Shown here in pieces: positions 34,907 to 44,512 of a DNA stretch of 64,000 nucleotides; positions within the stretch are counted from its first letter, which is position 1, and each line of letters opens with the position of its first letter. Under the pieces are notes generated by a model. It was not told where the DNA came from and ran no database searches. It saw only the letters and a list, made by a program, of their open reading frames with translations. The position numbers were made by a program, and so were the translations under genes. Source of the DNA: Candidatus Sericytochromatia bacterium (lineage in GTDB: Bacteria; Cyanobacteriota; Sericytochromatia; S15B-MN24; JAQBPE01); the NCBI GenBank assembly GCA_035285325.1, contig JAYKJB010000032.1:1-64000 (forward strand), given 5' to 3'.

Positions 34907-36772
34907 TCACCGTTTTTCGCTCCCGCAGGCGAGACTCGCGACGGTGGGGCAGACCGGAATCCGAAAGGCAGGCCCCAGCCACGTCAGAGGCGCCACCCGG
35001 AAGTTTTCGATGCCCACCGCGATCGCGAAGGCGGCCTGGGCCTGGAATCCACCATCGTGGAGCAGGCGCTCTTCGGCCGGGTTCGAGATGAAACCGGCCT
35101 CGAGCAACAGGGAGGGCACCACGGCATGCCGTAACACGAACAGGCCATCCTGTTTGGTGCCGCGGTCGGGTCGCCGCAACAGCGTCGCCACGGTGCGGTG
35201 AACCGTCTCGGCAAAGCCGCGGGAGCCACTCTCCCGCCAGTAGGTCTCCAGGCCGTTGGCCTCACGGCTCACGTGGGAATTGGTGTGCAGGCTGATGAAA
35301 AGGTCAGCCTGATGGCGGTCGATCGCTTGTAAGCGCGGTGCCAGCAACACGTCCGCATCGGTGCTGCGGGTCAGGATGACGTTGTAACCGCGGCGTTTCA
35401 GCGCCTCTCCCAGGGCTTTGCCCATCTCAAGGCAGACGGTCTTCTCAGCCAGCCCCGTCGGTCCGATCGCGCCTGGGTCGGCGCCCCCGTGTCCCGGGTC
35501 GATCACGACCAGCGGCATATCCGGTCGGCTGCGGGGATTCAAGCGTTCCCAGACCAAGGTGATGCCGCCCTGCTCATCGCGGCGTTCCGCGAGTTCATAG
35601 TGCCCCTCCGCCAGACTGACATCCAGCGTCCAGACGCCTCCCTGCCGACTGGCTTCAATTTGTTTGAGCAGGCGACCTGGCGGGGGCAGCTTGTCCTCGA
35701 ACGCCCCCCCGGGGACGCGCAAGCGCAGGCGGTCGGGAGCGGGTTGCGAGACCTGGTAGCGAAGCTTTTCGCCGTTGCGCAGGCCGACGTGGAGGGTCAA
35801 CTGGGTGTCGCTCTCGCGGCTCCAGATGCCTTGAAGCTCCTGGCCTTCCTCGCCCTCGTTCCCGCCGCTCGCCTGGGCGAAGCGGGCCAGCGTCTGGGCC
35901 AGGGCCGGATCCTCTTGACCCGCCTGGGCCACGATCAGGACCGCACGTTCCCGGACCTGCATGACCTGAAAGTTCGGGGCGCTCTCACAGTCGAGCACCA
36001 CCCGCACGCCTTCGCCCTGTTTGGACATGCGCACCTGTTTCACGCCCCCTCGCTGAACGGTCAGGGTGCGTTTCAGGTTGGTGTCCCCAAAGTCGGCCGC
36101 TGGCAGGTCGATCACGAACCGATGAGGGTGGCTCAGCACCGAGATGGCTGGCTCGAAGGGACCTGAGGTCTGCAGCACCAGACCGAAACTCTGCCAGGCC
36201 AGTTCCTCGATCACCACGGGGTCCACCGCGCGCGGACGAGGGGCCAGGCTGCGAATCGGCGCCCGCTTCACGGGAGCGGGATGCTGGACTGGGGGGCGGT
36301 TGGACGTCAGTGCCGGGCTCACCACCCGCCGTGCCGGCGCCTTCAGCGAGGAAGGACGGTCCTTGTGCGCTGCTGCTGCCTGAACCGCTGGTCGGCGCGG
36401 CGCCGGGTGGCGGTCCGGCAACCCCTGGGTTGGGCGCACCTGCCCTGCTGCAGAAGCCTTTGAAGGCTTCGGCCGCCCGGTTTTCCTGGGGGCGGGGCCA
36501 GGGTGCTGGCGCGTTGGGGGAGGGTCGGCCAGCAAGGCCAGCGCATCGGTCTCAGGGGCCGGGCGTCGGGCGGGGGGACGTCGAGTCGACCCGGCCTTTT
36601 GCTTGATGGCGTGCTCGCGTGTCTTTTCGACGGCGGCGGCGGGGGCGGGCAGGGGCAGGCAGAGGGTAAGCCCGAGACACGCAGCCAGCATCCCGCCGAG
36701 CCAGGCACGGGGGGGATGAGGGACGACGGCCTCCCGCGCGACGCGGGGAACGGCCAGAGAGTGAAGGGGCAT
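34907..36772 (-). CDS. N-acetylmuramoyl-L-alanine amidase (AMIN + Amidase_3)
   Basis: A 621-residue exported cell-wall hydrolase that cuts the bond between MurNAc and the stem peptide. It has a signal segment (LGGMLAACLGLTLCLPLPAPAAA), then a long Pro/Arg/Lys-rich region (50-190). One or two AMIN-like domains follow (about 200-400), with FVIDLPAADFGDTNLKR. The C-terminal catalytic domain has VIDPGHGGADPGAIGPTG, GLAEKTVCLEMG, LFISLHTNSHVS and LLLEAGFISNPAEE, with zinc ligands His, Glu, His and the catalytic Glu intact. It lies upstream of the capsule operon on the same strand. Confidence 0.94.
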   Translation of the reverse strand: MPLHSLAVPRVAREAVVPHPPRAWLGGMLAACLGLTLCLPLPAPAAAVEKTREHAIKQKAGSTRRPPARRPAPETDALALLADPPPTRQHPGPAPRKTGRPKPSKASAAGQVRPTQGLPDRHPAPRRPAVQAAAAHKDRPSSLKAPARRVVSPALTSNRPPVQHPAPVKRAPIRSLAPRPRAVDPVVIEELAWQSFGLVLQTSGPFEPAISVLSHPHRFVIDLPAADFGDTNLKRTLTVQRGGVKQVRMSKQGEGVRVVLDCESAPNFQVMQVRERAVLIVAQAGQEDPALAQTLARFAQASGGNEGEEGQELQGIWSRESDTQLTLHVGLRNGEKLRYQVSQPAPDRLRLRVPGGAFEDKLPPPGRLLKQIEASRQGGVWTLDVSLAEGHYELAERRDEQGGITLVWERLNPRSRPDMPLVVIDPGHGGADPGAIGPTGLAEKTVCLEMGKALGEALKRRGYNVILTRSTDADVLLAPRLQAIDRHQADLFISLHTNSHVSREANGLETYWRESGSRGFAETVHRTVATLLRRPDRGTKQDGLFVLRHAVVPSLLLEAGFISNPAEERLLHDGGFQAQAAFAIAVGIENFRVAPLTWLGPAFRIPVCPTVASLACGSEKR

Positions 36773-37059
36773 GGGGAAACCAACGACGGCGTGACGATCC
36801 GGACATCATTTCCGACCTGACATGATCCGGATAATCCAGGTTAGCCCGTCGCGCGCGCGCTTCGATGTGATGCCGACACCCCGTGGCGGGCGCGTCGCGC
36901 TTCCGGCCAGGGCGCGTGCGCGTGGTGTGGGGCTGGCTGGCTGGGGTATACGGCCATCGTTGTCATGACAGCAAGCGGTGCTCCGGACCAGCGATGCGGT
37001 CCGAACTGATGCAAGCGCCGTCATCAGGGAGCGAACAGTGATGACGCGGAGGCTGTGAG

Positions 37060-40000
37060 GTGGAAGGACATTCCTCGCTGGCGCCCTTTGCTGCGGTGCG
37101 TGAACTCGGTCGGGGGCGACAGGGCACGGTCTGGCTGGTGCGAGCGCCGGGGCTGGACGGCCTCTACGCACTGAAGCGTTTCGATGGCGCAGACCCTCTT
37201 CGTGCCGCGCAGGCGCAACAGGAGTTCAATGTCGGGGCCGACATCCCCCATCCGCATCTGGTCGAGGTGCTGGACCACGGACGTTTGCTGGGGGGCCAGC
37301 CTTTCGTGCTCTATGCGGCCTATGAAGGTGCTGTCACCGCTGCCGAGTGGGGCGTGCTGCCGCCAGCGCAGCTGGCCCGCCTCGCCTGGGAGCTGAGCGC
37401 CGCCCTGACCGCGATGCACGCGCGAGGCTGGCTCCATCGGGATGTCAGCCCGGACAATGTGCTGCGGGATGCCACGGGCGCGGCGCGCTTGATGGATCTG
37501 GGCCTGGCGGCTCGCTGGCCCGTTCCGCCCGAGGCGGCCGCCGGCACGCCGCGCTATGCCGCGCCGGAAACCCTGCGAGGCGAGCCAAGCGGGCCAGCGG
37601 CTGACTTCTGGGCCCTGGGCTGTTTGCTGTACCGCCTGGCCGTCGGCGCCGATCTGTTCGCCGCGCAGACGCCGGACGAATTGCTGCGGGCTCAGGCCGC
37701 TCTGTCATCGGCGCAGGTGGCCCGCCAGCTGGCTGAGCTTCCCGAAGCGCTGGCCGCGCTGATTCGTCGGTGGCTGTCCCACGAGCCGGGCCAGCGCCTC
37801 GAAGGGCTGCGGGAGCTTCGTGAACGCCTGCTGCCCCTCTGCCCTGAGCCACCGTGCGTGCTGTCGGACGGCCTGTTCGTCGCGTCGCCGGATTGGCGCC
37901 GCTGGTGGGCGAGGCGCCAGCGGCGAGGGGTGGTCTGCTGGTCGGGTGAGCGGGGTTCCGGACGATCCCGTTGTTTGCGGGAATGCCACGTCAGCCTCCG
38001 TCGCGAGGGCCTGCCCGCGCTACTGCTGCGGGGGGCGGCTCACCAATCTCCCTATTCCCTGCTGGAAACCCTCTGGCGCTGGTCAGTTGCCCACGTGCCT
38101 CACCTGCCCGAGTCCTTTCCCACCCCCCTGGCCCGTCTGGTGGCCTCGCTGTGGCCCTGGGCTTTTCCTGAAATGGTGCCCTTGGAGGATCCCGTCCGGC
38201 TGGCCCGGGCATTGCCCGAGTTGCTCGGGCGAATGCTGTCGGCGGTGGCGGAACAGCGCCTGCTGACCTTGCTGGTGGATGATTGGGAGCTGGTCGACGC
38301 GCGCAGCCGGGAGGTGATCGCGGGGGCCTGGACCAGCTCTCTGGGGCGGATGCAATGGATTGTCGCCGCGTCGCATCCCCTACCGGAGGCGGAAAACCTG
38401 GCCCTCACAGCCTTCGACGAGCGCCAGGCCCGCGCGTGGTTGGGCTCCATGCTGGGGACGAACGAGCCCCCCGAATGGGCCGATGCCCTGCGCGATCTCA
38501 CGGGTGGGCGGCCGGCCTGGCTTCGCCAGGCCGTGTGGCAGATGCTGCGCCCTCAGGCGGGCGTGGCGCCCAGGTTACCCGCGAGCGTCGACGGCTTGTT
38601 CCGAGACGCCTGGCGCGAGCTGAGTCAGGCGCAGCAGGAACTGATGGTGCTGCTGGCCGTGCACGGCGGTCGTTGCCCGCACGAGGAATGGTTGGCGGGC
38701 ACGCGTTTGCTCCCGGCCGCCTGGCCGCTCGACTGGCAGCGGCTGTGGGCCCGCCGGTTGCTGGAGGACCGCGGCAGCGAGGTAGGCTTCGTGGTCGGCT
38801 GGTGGCGCGACTGGATCGAGCACTGGCTCGGGGAGGCCGAGTACGCCCGTCGCTCAGGCGAGCTGGCCAAGGTCCTGTTGGCTGCCGCCGACGGCGAGCG
38901 GCGTGCGTCGCTGGCGTTCGTACATCGTCTGGCTTCCTTGCTCGCGCGGGCGGACGACCCTCAGGCGACGTTGACCTGGTCTGCCCGGGCCGCCGAGGCC
39001 GCAGCGCGGGTCTGGGCTTACGACGCGGTCATTCTGCACGCGGAGCGAGGCTTGTCGGCACTCGCAGGACTGGCCAGCGAGGTCGCAGGGTCCGATCTGG
39101 CCCAGTCATTGCGGATCCGGCTGGGGGATGCGCGGCGGGTTCAGGGGGATTGTCCGCGCGCGATCGCCTCCTATGAGGCCGCCCTGCGTCATCCACTCGA
39201 CGCGCTGACGCGGGGGCGGGTGCTGACCTCGCTGGGCAAGAGTCGTCAGTTACGACAGGAATTAGGGCAAGCCGCCGAGCATTACCAGGCGGCGATCGCG
39301 ATCCTGGGAGAGACGACGGCGCCGGAAGAATATCTACGCGCCCTGTCGGCACTGGCCAGGACGCGTTTTATGGCGGGGCAGCGGCGCATCAGCGAAGGCC
39401 TTTACCGCGACCTGTTGCGCCAGGCCCAGCACCTGGGCCAGCCGTCCTTCGAGGCTGAAGCCCTGTCCTTCCTCGGCTCTCTCGCGGTGGAAGAGCCGGC
39501 CACCGTCTCCGGCGGTTTTCGCGATTTGCAGGCCGCCCTGGTGATCCGGGAGCGCGGCGATGACCCGTTCGCCCGGGTCGATTCTCTGAACTTGCTCGGC
39601 AACGCCTGCCTGGGCCTGGGGCGTTTCAACGAGGCCCGCGACCATTTCGAACGGAATCGCCTGGTCGCCTCCGAGGTGGGCTACCGGTCGGAGGAAGGCC
39701 TGGCCTGGCTCAATCTGGCGCTGTGCGATCTGGCACAGGGGCGTCTTCAGACGGCTGACGGCGCCCTGGAACGGGCTGGGAAAATCGCCCGTGACGACCA
39801 TTATGATTTCCTGGCGGCCTTTGTCAGTCGGGCGGCGAGCTTGCTGGCGGCCCAGGTGGGCGACTGGGGGCGCATGGACCGCTGCCTCGCCCGCGCGCAC
39901 GAGCTGGAAACCAGCTTGAACAGCCCCTACGTGCGTCAGTTTGGCCTGGTCATGGAGGCAGAGCGCCATCTCTGGCTGGGCGACTTCGAGGCGGCCCGAC

Positions 40001-41823
40001 GTGCCGCTGGTCTGGCCCTGGCCCAGATCGAGACGGCGGGGGGACGGGAATGGCAGCGTGAGGCTCGGGTGGTCTGGATCGAGGCGACCCTGCATGCCGG
40101 TGACCTCGCGCGGGCACGGGCTGGCCTGTCAGAGCTTCAGGCCGACCTCGGAGATCCCCTGAACAGCCTCGAAAGGGTTCAGTTTCAGCGTTTGTCCGGC
40201 TGGTTGGCCCTGGCGGAGGGTGACCGTTCCCGGGCTGAGGCCTGCTGGCACGAAGCGCTCGCGGGGGCGGACGAGGCGGGCCTGCTGCGCCTGCAACTGG
40301 AACTGGCGGTGACGCTCGATGCAGGGGCGGGAGAGCCCCGAGGGGGCTTGCGCGTCGTGCCGGACGAGCAGGCCGGCCCGATCTGGCAGGCCCTGGCTGC
40401 TCGGGTTTGGGGGGCTTCTCTCGCGGAGCGGGAAGGCGCTTGGCAGCGCCTGCAGGGGGTGCTGGTCGACCTCACCCCGACGGGCCGTCAGCGCTTCCTG
40501 GCCCACCCCCTGCGCGCGGCGTTGGCGCGGGACCAGGCCAGCGCCACGCCGTCCTGGCGCGCGCGCCACCTGGAAATTCTGTTGGAGCTTGCCACGGCCC
40601 TGGGAACGGCCCGCGACCCGGATGGGGTGCTGGAGCGCGTGCAGCGATACAGCCTGGAATTGACCCGGGCCGAGCGCTGTTTGCTCCTGCTGCTGGATGC
40701 CGGGACAGCGGATTGGCGCGTATGGCGGGGGGCGGCCGACCTCCCCTACAGCCATTCGATCGTGTCCCGGGTGCTGGCGTCGCGCGTGTCGGAATGTCTG
40801 GTCGATACCGGGCAGGTTGGCGTCTGGCAGCCCGGTGCCAGTGTCGAGGCGCTGGCCCTGCGATCGGTGATGTGCGTTCCCATCGTGGTGGGAACGACGC
40901 TGCACGGCGTGATTTACGTCGACAGCCGGGCGGGGCTGAGCGACTTCGATGGCGAGGATGTTCGGATGCTCGAGGCGATCGCCGGACAGGCCGCCGTCGC
41001 GCTCGATACGGCTCGCTTGCTGGCCGCCCTGCGTCGCCAGATGGATCAGCAGACGGCCCACCTGCGCTTGCTGGCTGAGAAGGACACGGCCCTGAGCGCC
41101 TTGCAGGCCTATGACCGGGCTCGTCAGGCCGCCTTCGAGGCTGAGAGCCACGACCTGCGTGCCCCGTTGGGGTCGGTCCTGGCTGGCGTTCAGGGCCTGT
41201 TGCGTGGCCTGGTCGGTCCGCTCAATGACGCGCAGCAGGAGGCGCTCGAGGGGGTCTTGCAAAGCACGCGCACTTTGATGACGCGGATCGACGGCATCCT
41301 CGATGCGGCCTCTCTCGAAGCGGGCAAGTTGTCGCTGCGTTGCGAGCCGGTCCCGCTGGCCGGCTTGCTTCAAGGGTTGCTCAGGGCCATGGCACCGCTG
41401 GCGGAAGCCAAGGGGCTTGGGCTGCACGCCGAGGTGGCGTCCTGGCAGACCTTGCCGCCCGCCTGGGGGGATGCGCGGCGTTTGAACCAGGTGTTTCAAA
41501 ATCTGCTCGACAACGCATTGAAATACACCCTGGAGGGTGAGGTGAAGGTCGATATCTACACGGAGCGTGAAGGCTTGCGTGTGTGTATCCGCGACACCGG
41601 GCCTGGCTTACCGGCAGAGCGACGCAGCGCGCCATTCGAGAAATATGGGCCCCGGGATGCCCATCAACATGGCAGTGGCCTGGGCCTCTGGCGCACCGCC
41701 GCCCTGGTCGCGGAACATTCGGGTCGCATCGAGTTGCTGTCGTGCCCTGAGGGAGGCACGGAGGCCAGGGTCTGGTTGCCCGGGGCCCCGGCCGCCACGG
41801 GCGAGTATGTCTCCTCCGTGTAG
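37060..41823 (+). CDS. Hybrid Ser/Thr kinase - ATPase - TPR - GAF - histidine kinase
   Basis: A 1,587-residue signalling protein. Residues 10-270 are a Ser/Thr kinase: GRGRQGTVWLV glycine loop, Lys39 in YALKRF, HRDVSPDN (126-133), and DLG (146-148) for DFG. Residues about 275-540 are an AAA/STAND-like ATPase. Its P-loop reads GERGSGRSR (296-304), with Arg at the usual Lys, and LLVDDWELVD is a Walker-B-like strand. A long TPR-like helical region (about 610-1150) follows. Then come a GAF domain (about 1165-1325) and a HisKA/HATPase unit with phospho-acceptor His1364 in SHDLRAPLG, N-box Asn1485, DTGPGLP and GSGLGLW. The order matches cyanobacterial Hstk-type kinases. GTG with CGGAGG upstream. 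Confidence 0.93.
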   Translation: MEGHSSLAPFAAVRELGRGRQGTVWLVRAPGLDGLYALKRFDGADPLRAAQAQQEFNVGADIPHPHLVEVLDHGRLLGGQPFVLYAAYEGAVTAAEWGVLPPAQLARLAWELSAALTAMHARGWLHRDVSPDNVLRDATGAARLMDLGLAARWPVPPEAAAGTPRYAAPETLRGEPSGPAADFWALGCLLYRLAVGADLFAAQTPDELLRAQAALSSAQVARQLAELPEALAALIRRWLSHEPGQRLEGLRELRERLLPLCPEPPCVLSDGLFVASPDWRRWWARRQRRGVVCWSGERGSGRSRCLRECHVSLRREGLPALLLRGAAHQSPYSLLETLWRWSVAHVPHLPESFPTPLARLVASLWPWAFPEMVPLEDPVRLARALPELLGRMLSAVAEQRLLTLLVDDWELVDARSREVIAGAWTSSLGRMQWIVAASHPLPEAENLALTAFDERQARAWLGSMLGTNEPPEWADALRDLTGGRPAWLRQAVWQMLRPQAGVAPRLPASVDGLFRDAWRELSQAQQELMVLLAVHGGRCPHEEWLAGTRLLPAAWPLDWQRLWARRLLEDRGSEVGFVVGWWRDWIEHWLGEAEYARRSGELAKVLLAAADGERRASLAFVHRLASLLARADDPQATLTWSARAAEAAARVWAYDAVILHAERGLSALAGLASEVAGSDLAQSLRIRLGDARRVQGDCPRAIASYEAALRHPLDALTRGRVLTSLGKSRQLRQELGQAAEHYQAAIAILGETTAPEEYLRALSALARTRFMAGQRRISEGLYRDLLRQAQHLGQPSFEAEALSFLGSLAVEEPATVSGGFRDLQAALVIRERGDDPFARVDSLNLLGNACLGLGRFNEARDHFERNRLVASEVGYRSEEGLAWLNLALCDLAQGRLQTADGALERAGKIARDDHYDFLAAFVSRAASLLAAQVGDWGRMDRCLARAHELETSLNSPYVRQFGLVMEAERHLWLGDFEAARRAAGLALAQIETAGGREWQREARVVWIEATLHAGDLARARAGLSELQADLGDPLNSLERVQFQRLSGWLALAEGDRSRAEACWHEALAGADEAGLLRLQLELAVTLDAGAGEPRGGLRVVPDEQAGPIWQALAARVWGASLAEREGAWQRLQGVLVDLTPTGRQRFLAHPLRAALARDQASATPSWRARHLEILLELATALGTARDPDGVLERVQRYSLELTRAERCLLLLLDAGTADWRVWRGAADLPYSHSIVSRVLASRVSECLVDTGQVGVWQPGASVEALALRSVMCVPIVVGTTLHGVIYVDSRAGLSDFDGEDVRMLEAIAGQAAVALDTARLLAALRRQMDQQTAHLRLLAEKDTALSALQAYDRARQAAFEAESHDLRAPLGSVLAGVQGLLRGLVGPLNDAQQEALEGVLQSTRTLMTRIDGILDAASLEAGKLSLRCEPVPLAGLLQGLLRAMAPLAEAKGLGLHAEVASWQTLPPAWGDARRLNQVFQNLLDNALKYTLEGEVKVDIYTEREGLRVCIRDTGPGLPAERRSAPFEKYGPRDAHQHGSGLGLWRTAALVAEHSGRIELLSCPEGGTEARVWLPGAPAATGEYVSSV

Positions 41824-41874
41824 AAAGTGGGCCTTGCTGCCCGCGCCGCCCTCTCGGAGCGCGGTGGACGCGCC

Positions 41875-42222
41875 CTAGCCGTCGCGCCAGGCCAGCAGGT
41901 CATTGACCTCTCTCAGGATGTCATCCAGGTCGACCGGTTTGGTCAGACGGCGCACGTTGGCGCGCTCAATGGCGGCCACCCGGTCCAGATCGCGCCCGCT
42001 CACGAACAGGATCGGCAGCTGGGTGCGCTGGGCGATCGCGTCCCCACGCAGCAGGGGCAGCGCCACATCGAGCAGCAGCATGTCGGGTTCAAACGTGCGG
42101 ATGGCCGCCAGCGCACTTTCCCCATCGTGGGCCAGCTGCACCCGGTGGCCAGCCGTCTCAAGCAAGCGCGCCACCATGCGGGCGAAGGGGCGGTCGTCAT
42201 CGGCCATCAAGATGCGTGCCAT
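41875..42222 (-). CDS. Stand-alone response regulator receiver
   Basis: A 115-residue CheY-like receiver with no output domain. The acidic triad is Asp8-Asp9-Asp10, the phospho-acceptor Asp52 is in LLLDVALP, and the switch residues Ser75 and Lys95 (LTKPVD) are present. It ends 52 bases from the convergent hybrid histidine kinase, an attractive but unproven partner. By strand and spacing it is the last gene of the run from mutS. Its output is probably protein-protein contact. Confidence 0.93.
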   Translation of the reverse strand: MARILMADDDRPFARMVARLLETAGHRVQLAHDGESALAAIRTFEPDMLLLDVALPLLRGDAIAQRTQLPILFVSGRDLDRVAAIERANVRRLTKPVDLDDILREVNDLLAWRDG

Positions 42223-42244: not shown

Positions 42245-43159
42245 TCACGTGGGCTCCGGGGTCGGCCCCGCTGCGTCGGTCGGCAGCGCCAAGGCGGAAT
42301 ACAGGGCGGTGCGGATCGGGCCGGGCTTCAATTTCACCTGACCGTTCAGCAGGGCGAACAGCGTGTCTGCCTCGATGTGCGTCAGGGCGCTCAGCCTCGC
42401 GACGTCGAGGCGTTGCGCGTGTATCGCGCGCAGCACGGCCTGCATCTCGGGCTGATACTGGGCGAAGGGAGGCAGATAGGTCAGCGCGTCATCGAGCTCC
42501 GGATCGGACGCCGGCGCGGGGTTGAAGGTTCGCTGCAGGAAGTGTTGCAGCAAGCGTTCGGCAAACGGGTCTGCCGCTTCCTCGGCGGCTGCCAGGCCAC
42601 CGGCCAGCCGGCTCAGCAACGCGCAGAAGGTGGCGGCGTCCGTTTCCGGGAGCACCCGCCGGGCCGCGGCTTCGAGGCGATCGCGCCAGTGGTCGAGCGG
42701 AAGATACTCGGCGAACATCAGCGGGTCCGCTTCGGCCGCAGCGGCGAAGCGCGCGATCGCCTCCGGGTCTCTCGGGAAGGGCGTGCCACCGCGCAACACC
42801 AGCTGCAGATGCCCCTCGCTGTAATGCGGCACGATGCGGCGAATCCATTCGGCCTGCGTGATCTGTTTCGCCTTCAGGTGGGCGATCAGACGGCGGGTCG
42901 AGGCGGGCAGGACATCGAGCTGATGGCGATACTCGGGAAAGTCGAGCGGATCGAGTCCCAGTGCGGCGGCCAGGGCATGCAACGTGTCGCGGGAGCGAGG
43001 AAACGAGACCTTCCCGAGCAGCACCCGTGACAGGTGGTCCCGGGTCAGCCCTGCGGCGCTGGCCAGTTCGGTCTGGCTGAGGCCTCTGGCTTGCAGGGCG
43101 TGCCGCACCAGCAGGACCGAGGGGCTCGCATCGGCTGAAATCCGGCCCTTTCGCCCCAT
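42245..43159 (-). CDS. XRE-type HTH protein
   Basis: A 304-residue protein with an N-terminal XRE/Cro HTH (VRHALQARGLSQTELASAAG, LTRDHLSRVLLGKVSFP). A second region (about 75-130) may hold another degenerate HTH (AKQITQAEWIRRIVPHYSEG). The rest is helical (about 140-300) with no known domain. The ATG at 43159 begins four bases past the preceding stop and has no strong ribosome-binding site, so it may be translationally coupled. Role unknown; it is placed just before the receiver gene. Confidence 0.75.
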   Translation of the reverse strand: MGRKGRISADASPSVLLVRHALQARGLSQTELASAAGLTRDHLSRVLLGKVSFPRSRDTLHALAAALGLDPLDFPEYRHQLDVLPASTRRLIAHLKAKQITQAEWIRRIVPHYSEGHLQLVLRGGTPFPRDPEAIARFAAAAEADPLMFAEYLPLDHWRDRLEAAARRVLPETDAATFCALLSRLAGGLAAAEEAADPFAERLLQHFLQRTFNPAPASDPELDDALTYLPPFAQYQPEMQAVLRAIHAQRLDVARLSALTHIEADTLFALLNGQVKLKPGPIRTALYSALALPTDAAGPTPEPT

Positions 43160-43163
43160 GGGG

Positions 43164-43721
43164 TCAGAGGTGGAGCGAGAGGCTGGCCAGGCCCACGCGA
43201 TGCAGAAGGTACTGGATGGCCACATCTGCCAGCAGCAGGGCCAGCAGCAACTGGAAACCACGGGGCCCGAGCATGGTGTAAAACGCCACGGGACCCGCCT
43301 GCCAGGCCGTGCGGAAGGTGGCCCGGGGTTGTCCCCAGGCGGCCACCAGGGAGCCCACCAGCAAGCCGGCCACCTGCACGAAGAGACCGCCGCGAAACAA
43401 CAGCGCAAACAGCACCATGCCGAAAAAGGACCCCATCACCACGCGGGGGTTGGGCAAGCCGTACAGCACGCCGAGGCGTGCCGACCAGCGCGGCGCCAGC
43501 CAGGAGAGTGCGGCCAGGGCCAGCACCACGCCCGCCGGCCAGGCCAGGTTCAGTCGACTGACCGGGCTCATGGAGACGGCGTAGGCCACGTAAGCCAGCG
43601 CGCTTCCGGCCGACACCAGGACACCGGGCGAAAATGGACGCAGGACGATCAAGGCGATGCCGGCCAGTAAACCCACGTGGGCCAGCGCGTAAGCGGGCAC
43701 GGCCGTATCGAGCGGGAACAT
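43164..43721 (-). CDS. Multi-pass membrane protein, function unknown
   Basis: A 185-residue protein with about six predicted membrane helices (for example AHVGLLAGIALIVLRPF, AGVVLALAALSWLA, FFGMVLFALLFRGGLFV and FQLLLALLLADVAIQYLL). No signature of a known transporter or enzyme. It lies between the glycosyltransferase and the XRE gene in one run (17 and 4 bases apart), so it might help lipid-linked sugar handling. Confidence 0.75.
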   Translation of the reverse strand: MFPLDTAVPAYALAHVGLLAGIALIVLRPFSPGVLVSAGSALAYVAYAVSMSPVSRLNLAWPAGVVLALAALSWLAPRWSARLGVLYGLPNPRVVMGSFFGMVLFALLFRGGLFVQVAGLLVGSLVAAWGQPRATFRTAWQAGPVAFYTMLGPRGFQLLLALLLADVAIQYLLHRVGLASLSLHL

Positions 43722-43738: not shown

Positions 43739-44512
43739 TCAGAAGTTCTTGAGCTTGCCGTGGAGCTTGAAGAGCTCGCCGAAGGCCCGCAGGATGACCT
43801 TCAAATTGGCTCCGGTCGCCTTGCCGCCCACCCGGGCGTAATGCGACACGGGCACTTCGACCCAGGGCGTGCGACGCCGCTTGAGCTTGACCAGCATTTC
43901 GGTGTTGATCATGGCCCCCTGACTCTCGGGCATCGCCATTTGCAGCTTGTCCCGCTTGAAGATCTTGAAGGCGCAGTCGATGTCTCGCACGCCAAGGCCG
44001 AACAACAGATCGACCAGACAGCGCCAGCCGAAAGCGTTGAATTTCCGTCCGAGGTGATCCTGACGGTTTTCGCGGTAGCCGAGCACCACATCCACCTCTC
44101 TCAGGCGCGGGATCAGCTTGTCGAGTTCTCGGATGTCGAACTGGTTGTCCGAGTCCATGAAGAACACGTAGTCCTTCCGAGCGCGGGCGAAGCCGGCCTG
44201 CAAGGCTCCCCCATAGCCCTTGTTGGCTTGGTGAATCGGCACGATGCGAGCATTTTCCGCGTGCAGGGCATCGAGAATCTCACCCGTCCGATCTTTGGAG
44301 CCGTCGTTGACGACCAGCACCTCGTAATCATCCGACACGCTGGCCAGGTAAGCCGCCGCATCCAGGGCCACCTTGCCGATGATGTCTTCCTCGTTGTAGG
44401 CCGGCATCACGCAGGAAATGCTCGACAGGCGCATGGAGGGCTTGTCGGCGGCCAGGGCGGGCCCCGCAGGGGAAAGGGGCAGACCGGCAGGGTCGAGCGA
44501 TTCGGAAGACAT
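43739..44512 (-). CDS. Family 2 glycosyltransferase (dolichyl-phosphate-mannose-synthase-like)
   Basis: A 257-residue GT-A enzyme without membrane helices. It has SCVMPAYNEEDIIGKVA, VLVVNDGSKDRTGEIL, NKGYGGALQAGFARAR and the DxD-type FFMDSDNQFDI. Later come LGYRENRQDHLGRKFNA and DIDCAFKIFKRD. These are typical of DPM1-like transferases that load sugars on polyprenyl phosphate. UppS, encoded elsewhere in the window, makes the precursor of that lipid. The substrate is unknown. Confidence 0.92.
   Translation of the reverse strand: MSSESLDPAGLPLSPAGPALAADKPSMRLSSISCVMPAYNEEDIIGKVALDAAAYLASVSDDYEVLVVNDGSKDRTGEILDALHAENARIVPIHQANKGYGGALQAGFARARKDYVFFMDSDNQFDIRELDKLIPRLREVDVVLGYRENRQDHLGRKFNAFGWRCLVDLLFGLGVRDIDCAFKIFKRDKLQMAMPESQGAMINTEMLVKLKRRRTPWVEVPVSHYARVGGKATGANLKVILRAFGELFKLHGKLKNF

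Follow-up and report, generated by a model that had tools for sequence, protein, structure and literature searches.

Proteins that join a Ser/Thr kinase (STK) and a histidine kinase (HK) in a single chain are a recognised group. HstK-like dual kinases have been known since 2001 (Phalip et al. 2001, as cited by PMC2176072 and PMC1262709), and cyanobacterial proteins with the layout STK-GAF-HK are described as HstK and cbSTKIII (PMC2176072, PMC1262709). The fungal hybrid kinases CHK1, Mak2 and Mak3 follow the order STK, AAA_16, GAF, HK (PMC9069115).

The gene described here (37060-41823, + strand, GTG start) lies in a window of 64,000 nucleotides, the whole stretch of DNA that was analysed. It encodes a protein of 1587 residues, called below the dual kinase, with the module order Ser/Thr kinase - STAND ATPase - TPR - GAF - HisKA/HATPase. 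The earlier note had placed all five modules in one polypeptide, and all five were recovered, by a Pfam profile search and, for STAND, by fold: Pkinase at residues 12-248 (E 7.7e-31), AAA_16 at 285-421 (E 7.7e-7; 30.2 bits, just below the 32.6 cut-off), a STAND NTPase at about 270-640 (fold model and structure matches), a TPR region at about 640-1160 (Pfam TPR), GAF_2 at 1184-1316 (E 1.4e-12), HisKA at 1363-1422 (E 2.6e-7) and HATPase_c at 1470-1574 (E 1.2e-20). Since a full-length ortholog exists in another genus, this open reading frame is not a chance one.

By Pfam, the protein has what defines cbSTKIII architecturally (an N-terminal STK, at least one GAF domain and a C-terminal histidine kinase), and it resembles HstK and cbSTKIII further in carrying an AAA_16/STAND domain between STK and GAF in the same polypeptide. 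The architecture is already known (HstK-like); here it comes with a variant active site that is conserved and with an XRE partner that the earlier note had overlooked. The dual kinase differs from HstK and cbSTKIII by its separate STK, STAND and HK clades, by an Arg where they have the Walker-A Lys, by its HRDV[ST]P catalytic loop, and by a tail-to-tail receiver linked to an XRE gene. It shares with CHK1, Mak2 and Mak3 the order STK, AAA_16, GAF, HK, a likeness of architecture; in CHK1, however, the receiver is within the chain, whereas here the chain ends in HATPase_c and the receiver is a gene of its own.

The receiver, its XRE neighbour and the conserved block

The C-terminal part of the dual kinase has the motifs of a HisKA-type kinase: an H-box (SHDLRAPL; the stretch ESHDLRAPL, at 41143-41169 on the + strand, is the same in the ortholog), an N box (NLLDNALKY), G1 (DTGPGLP) and G2 (GSGLGL). 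The lone receiver that the earlier note had seen 52 bases away on the opposite strand is there (41875-42222, - strand; 115 residues; Pfam Response_reg, E 6.1e-15), tail to tail with the kinase gene at a distance of about 51-52 bases (41824-41874). Its acidic pocket (D8-D10), phospho-acceptor Asp (D52), Ser/Thr (S75) and Lys (K95) are kept in both genera. Judging by these catalytic residues, which are conserved, the phosphotransfer ends of HK and receiver both look intact. A promoter/terminator scan of the kinase-receiver junction found nothing.

Directly upstream of the receiver, 22 bases away on the same strand, is a gene for an XRE-type DNA-binding protein (42245-43159, - strand), which was absent from the earlier note. 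It is preceded by a membrane protein gene (43164-43721, - strand), whose counterpart in the second genome, G001, matches Pfam DUF456, and by a family-2 glycosyltransferase (GT2) gene (43739-44512, - strand; 74% identical in G001), the first of the same-strand run. The gaps within this GT2-DUF456-XRE-receiver run are about 4 to 22 bases, and an AGGAGG site lies 4 bases ahead of the receiver ATG. Because of these short gaps and this site, the receiver is taken to close a probable operon that begins with the GT2, DUF456-type and XRE genes. The circuit that the earlier note had drawn between kinase and receiver is therefore more than a pair: the pair itself is kept, and its description was incomplete. 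Beyond the run and the kinase gene, one side has MutS and the opposite side an AMIN-domain amidase together with a Wzc-type protein; the DUF456-type membrane protein and GT2 in the receiver's run, together with Wzc and the amidase across the kinase, hint at an envelope-related signal.

We considered whether the genes belong to a defence system, and rejected this reading: the PADLOC matches of the dual kinase (PD-T4-6, mad6) are limited to the kinase domain, those of the receiver and XRE are weak and partial, and no recognisable system surrounds them.

Relatives were searched in 39 genomes, including the source genome (G000). G001 is the sole other genome with a full-length match to the dual kinase (39% identity over residues 9-1575); a scan of contigs likewise gave one full-length relative only, the G001 contig, and the search of the 16 remaining genomes of the class yielded no counterpart of full length. 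In G001 the order and orientation are unchanged for the genes of the kinase, the receiver, the XRE protein, the membrane protein and the glycosyltransferase, the receiver being 52-53% and the XRE protein 57% identical. The earlier note had proposed to abandon the pair if it was not conserved; it recurs in this second genus with 39% (kinase) and 52% (receiver) identity and in the same order, that is, in two of the two genera sampled for the family (two genomes), inside a larger Wzc-to-MutS syntenic block. Wzc, amidase, glycosyltransferase and MutS around it are also common to both genera, and none of the block is present at seven MutS loci of other genomes in the class. As the pair sits within this wider conserved block, its adjacency would count as no more than moderate evidence for a functional pairing.

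XRE homologues are found at roughly 28-40% identity across the order. The XRE-receiver unit is wider than the pair formed with the dual kinase, since six loci carry a single receiver beside XRE and no dual kinase (G000:C120, G001:C499, G003:C57, G004:C19, G005:C50 and G006:C9). The source genome thus has, separate from the dual kinase, a second locus with XRE then a single receiver (G000:C120, about 35869-37159; region L086, 3870-5160); the others are in regions L085, L087, L088, L089 and L090, and in G000 and G001 the second locus is flanked by alpha-amylase-like and ruvB-like genes. At G003:C57 (L087, 5183-6762) the receiver linked to XRE lies opposite a convergent, separate gene for a histidine-kinase-like protein of 384 residues with a histidine-kinase ATPase domain, in which Pfam recognised no dimerisation part. 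A kinase opposite the XRE-receiver unit has appeared in two forms, the fused dual kinase and this separate G003 gene. Because the receiver adjoins XRE and XRE-receiver operons recur across the order, the output is likely to be XRE-controlled transcription, and we infer that receiver and XRE form a split response regulator. When the PDB was searched with a model of the XRE protein, mainly short XRE/HTH domains matched, none with E below 0.001.

The same operons allow another explanation, in which receiver and XRE are an independent unit served by a different histidine kinase, and the dual kinase is a mere neighbour that signals elsewhere. The existence of XRE-receiver operons without a dual kinase across the order speaks for this explanation, as do a Wzc-to-MutS block that is syntenic as a whole and kinase and receiver genes that are convergent, not co-transcribed. 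However, seven other genomes of the class lack the block at their MutS locus. The dual kinase, alone in having an HK output among the ~16 family members fetched from its genome, and its HK-bearing ortholog adjoin the same receiver, which neither of the HK-less relatives, C47 and C206, has beside it; moreover, in G003 an unrelated HK faces a paralogous receiver. We therefore consider the independent unit possible, but somewhat unlikely. One of these relatives, G001:C206 (L049, 3353-7953), directly follows a receiver gene of its own on the same strand; that receiver shares only 26% identity with the one at 41875-42222.

Active sites of the STAND core and the Ser/Thr kinase

Because the AAA_16 score is just below the Pfam cut-off, an AlphaFold2 model was built for residues 266-640, based on 13 aligned sequences (pLDDT 87, pTM 0.84). 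The best solved structures for this model are PH0952 (6mfv, E 2.9e-10), CED-4 (2a5y) and Apaf-1 (1z6t), all STAND proteins, so the STAND label given in the earlier note is correct. The likeness is in the predicted fold and, for PH0952, extends to a TPR sensor; the dual kinase differs from all three in having an Arg for the Walker-A Lys and in being fused between two kinases. Among the hallmarks of a STAND NTPase, it has the NTPase fold, the Walker-B Asp (invariant in the 13 sequences) and a repeat superstructure (TPR by Pfam), and lacks the Walker-A Lys.

This substitution, which the earlier note had also read, is encoded by CGA at residue 302, within the degenerate Walker A GERGSGRSR (37945-37971, + strand), and it is a clade trait. 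We compared 44 STAND domains (35 in one comparison and nine more), taken from G000 and G001 paralogues, from a further four genomes of the order and from 13 HstK-type proteins; G000 paralogues were fetched as regions, so their count is a lower bound. Arg occupies the site in three of the 44, namely the dual kinase, its ortholog G001:C476 and G001:C206, and Lys in the other 41. Together with G000:C47 they make up a single clade (support 99/98 and 100/100 in two trees), in which all three STK-bearing members have Arg and C47, without STK and HK, has Lys. C47 (L031, 3612-6773) is the nearest paralogue of the dual kinase; it is devoid of both kinase domains and keeps STAND-TPR-GAF with the Walker-A Lys. 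Arg has either a single origin followed by reversion in C47, or two origins.

STAND proteins normally alternate between ADP and ATP forms (PMC7583971). Since Arg is a conserved trait of the clade, it is reasonable to suppose, with the earlier note, that the dual kinase may have lost its STAND ATPase activity. Walker-A K-to-R mutants, of which RecA K70R is an example (PMC9769622), bind ATP and do not hydrolyse it in many cases, not all (PMC6254361). As binding without hydrolysis is a frequent outcome in these published mutants, we favour a nucleotide-holding scaffold over a dead domain. Alternatively, the core may be a working ATPase switch in spite of the Arg. The invariant Walker-B Asp, a fold that looks intact and the diversity of K-to-R effects among ATPases (PMC6254361) are consistent with this, but Lys is kept in all 41 other relatives, the ortholog has neither a second acid in Walker B (DGW) nor a Pro in its GxP motif (GNM), and a comparison of the orthologs shows the lowest conservation in STAND and TPR (32-36% identity, versus 46-48% for HK and GAF). 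We tend to find a working switch unlikely.

A second substitution, absent from the earlier note, is found in the Ser/Thr kinase, whose catalytic loop HRDVSPDN (37435-37458, + strand) has Ser where Lys is usual. It affects the same three proteins as the Walker-A Arg: their loops read HRDVSPDN, HRDVTPGN and HRDLTPAN, and at this site the remaining 18 non-HstK paralogues carry Lys. The earlier note had instead pointed to DLG in place of DFG. The motif is present (LMDLGLA, 37489-37509, + strand), but as a functional marker we discarded it, the ortholog having DFG and four relatives (C13, C16, C63a and G007:C283) having DLG with an intact Walker-A Lys.

The Ser/Thr kinase domain might also be a decaying pseudokinase, leaving the histidine kinase alone to signal. 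Its branch in the STK tree is long (1.64, versus 0.59 and 0.47 in two relatives), and DLG and the Lys-to-Ser change in the catalytic loop point the same way; K39, E55, D128, N133, D146, G148 and E170 are nevertheless all kept, which makes decay rather improbable.

Relation to HstK and to the order's own kinases

The source genome (3.8 Mb) encodes about 16 STK-STAND-TPR(-GAF) proteins, a lower bound, of 1200-1900 residues, several with a GGDEF end (L032-L045); they make up a large multi-domain signalling family. Among the ~16 family members fetched from it, only the dual kinase has an HK output. The order's STK-STAND-TPR-GAF proteins have its first four modules and its placement in the STK tree in common; the dual kinase differs from them by its HisKA/HATPase output and its Walker-A Arg.

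In the STK tree, the dual kinase clade groups with these proteins of the order, whose outputs are GGDEF, HD or none known, and a 100/100 branch divides this clade from the 13 HstK-type proteins. The STAND tree also sets the dual kinase apart from the 13, with full support. In the HK tree, the HKs of the dual kinase and G001:C476 group by themselves as a clade (99/97), a weak criterion because those of HstK are themselves scattered. The tree evidence is to be read with the long branch of the dual kinase STK, several rows of unusual composition and an incomplete sampling of paralogues in mind. By search, no HstK-type protein was found in G000; G003 and G001 have some. Membership of the canonical cyanobacterial HstK (cbSTKIII) lineage by descent, which STK, AAA_16, GAF and HK in the same order might suggest (PMC2176072), is thus rejected as highly unlikely: full support in the STK and STAND trees sets the dual kinase apart from the 13 HstK-type proteins, and its HK lies in a clade of its own. 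Because its STK groups with the order's own family and not with HstK, the layout of the dual kinase was probably assembled independently of HstK.

A putative circuit and its meaning

We propose that the dual kinase would be a soluble multi-input sensor kinase, in which the STAND-TPR core and the GAF domain may collect the signal and steer two outputs, the N-terminal Ser/Thr kinase and the C-terminal histidine kinase. The histidine kinase would phosphorylate the single-domain receiver of the convergent gene, which would then act, presumably by contact, on the XRE protein encoded just before it, and transcription would change. With its Arg, the STAND core probably keeps nucleotide bound but does not hydrolyse it normally, and would be a scaffold that is slow or fixed and not a cycling ATPase. 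Observed are the parts of this mechanism, the motifs that are intact or altered in them, the conservation of their order, and Arg and Ser/Thr as clade traits. Against it count the following: kinase and receiver are convergent and not co-transcribed, about eleven other histidine kinases in the genome could phosphorylate the receiver, the family is represented by two genomes only, and the adjacency of the pair could be hitch-hiking in a block where Wzc, amidase and MutS are kept too. On balance, we regard the circuit from dual kinase to receiver to XRE, with a slow or fixed STAND scaffold, as an even call.

A bolder reading, which we put forward as speculative and distinctly improbable, is that the Lys-to-Arg change in STAND and the Lys-to-Ser/Thr change in the STK loop occurred together, so that the front half would have become a nucleotide-holding gate for an HK driving a split XRE/receiver switch, in a layout separate from HstK. 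If our overall account is right, the two-kinase layout arose no fewer than two times within a single bacterial phylum, each time from another stock of kinases, which would argue that a STAND module set between the two kinds of kinase is useful in itself. The natural Walker-A contrast between the Arg of the dual kinase and the Lys of its nearest relative, C47, bears on whether STAND proteins may signal without ATP turnover, and the XRE-receiver operon that recurs across the order may represent one type of split response regulator.
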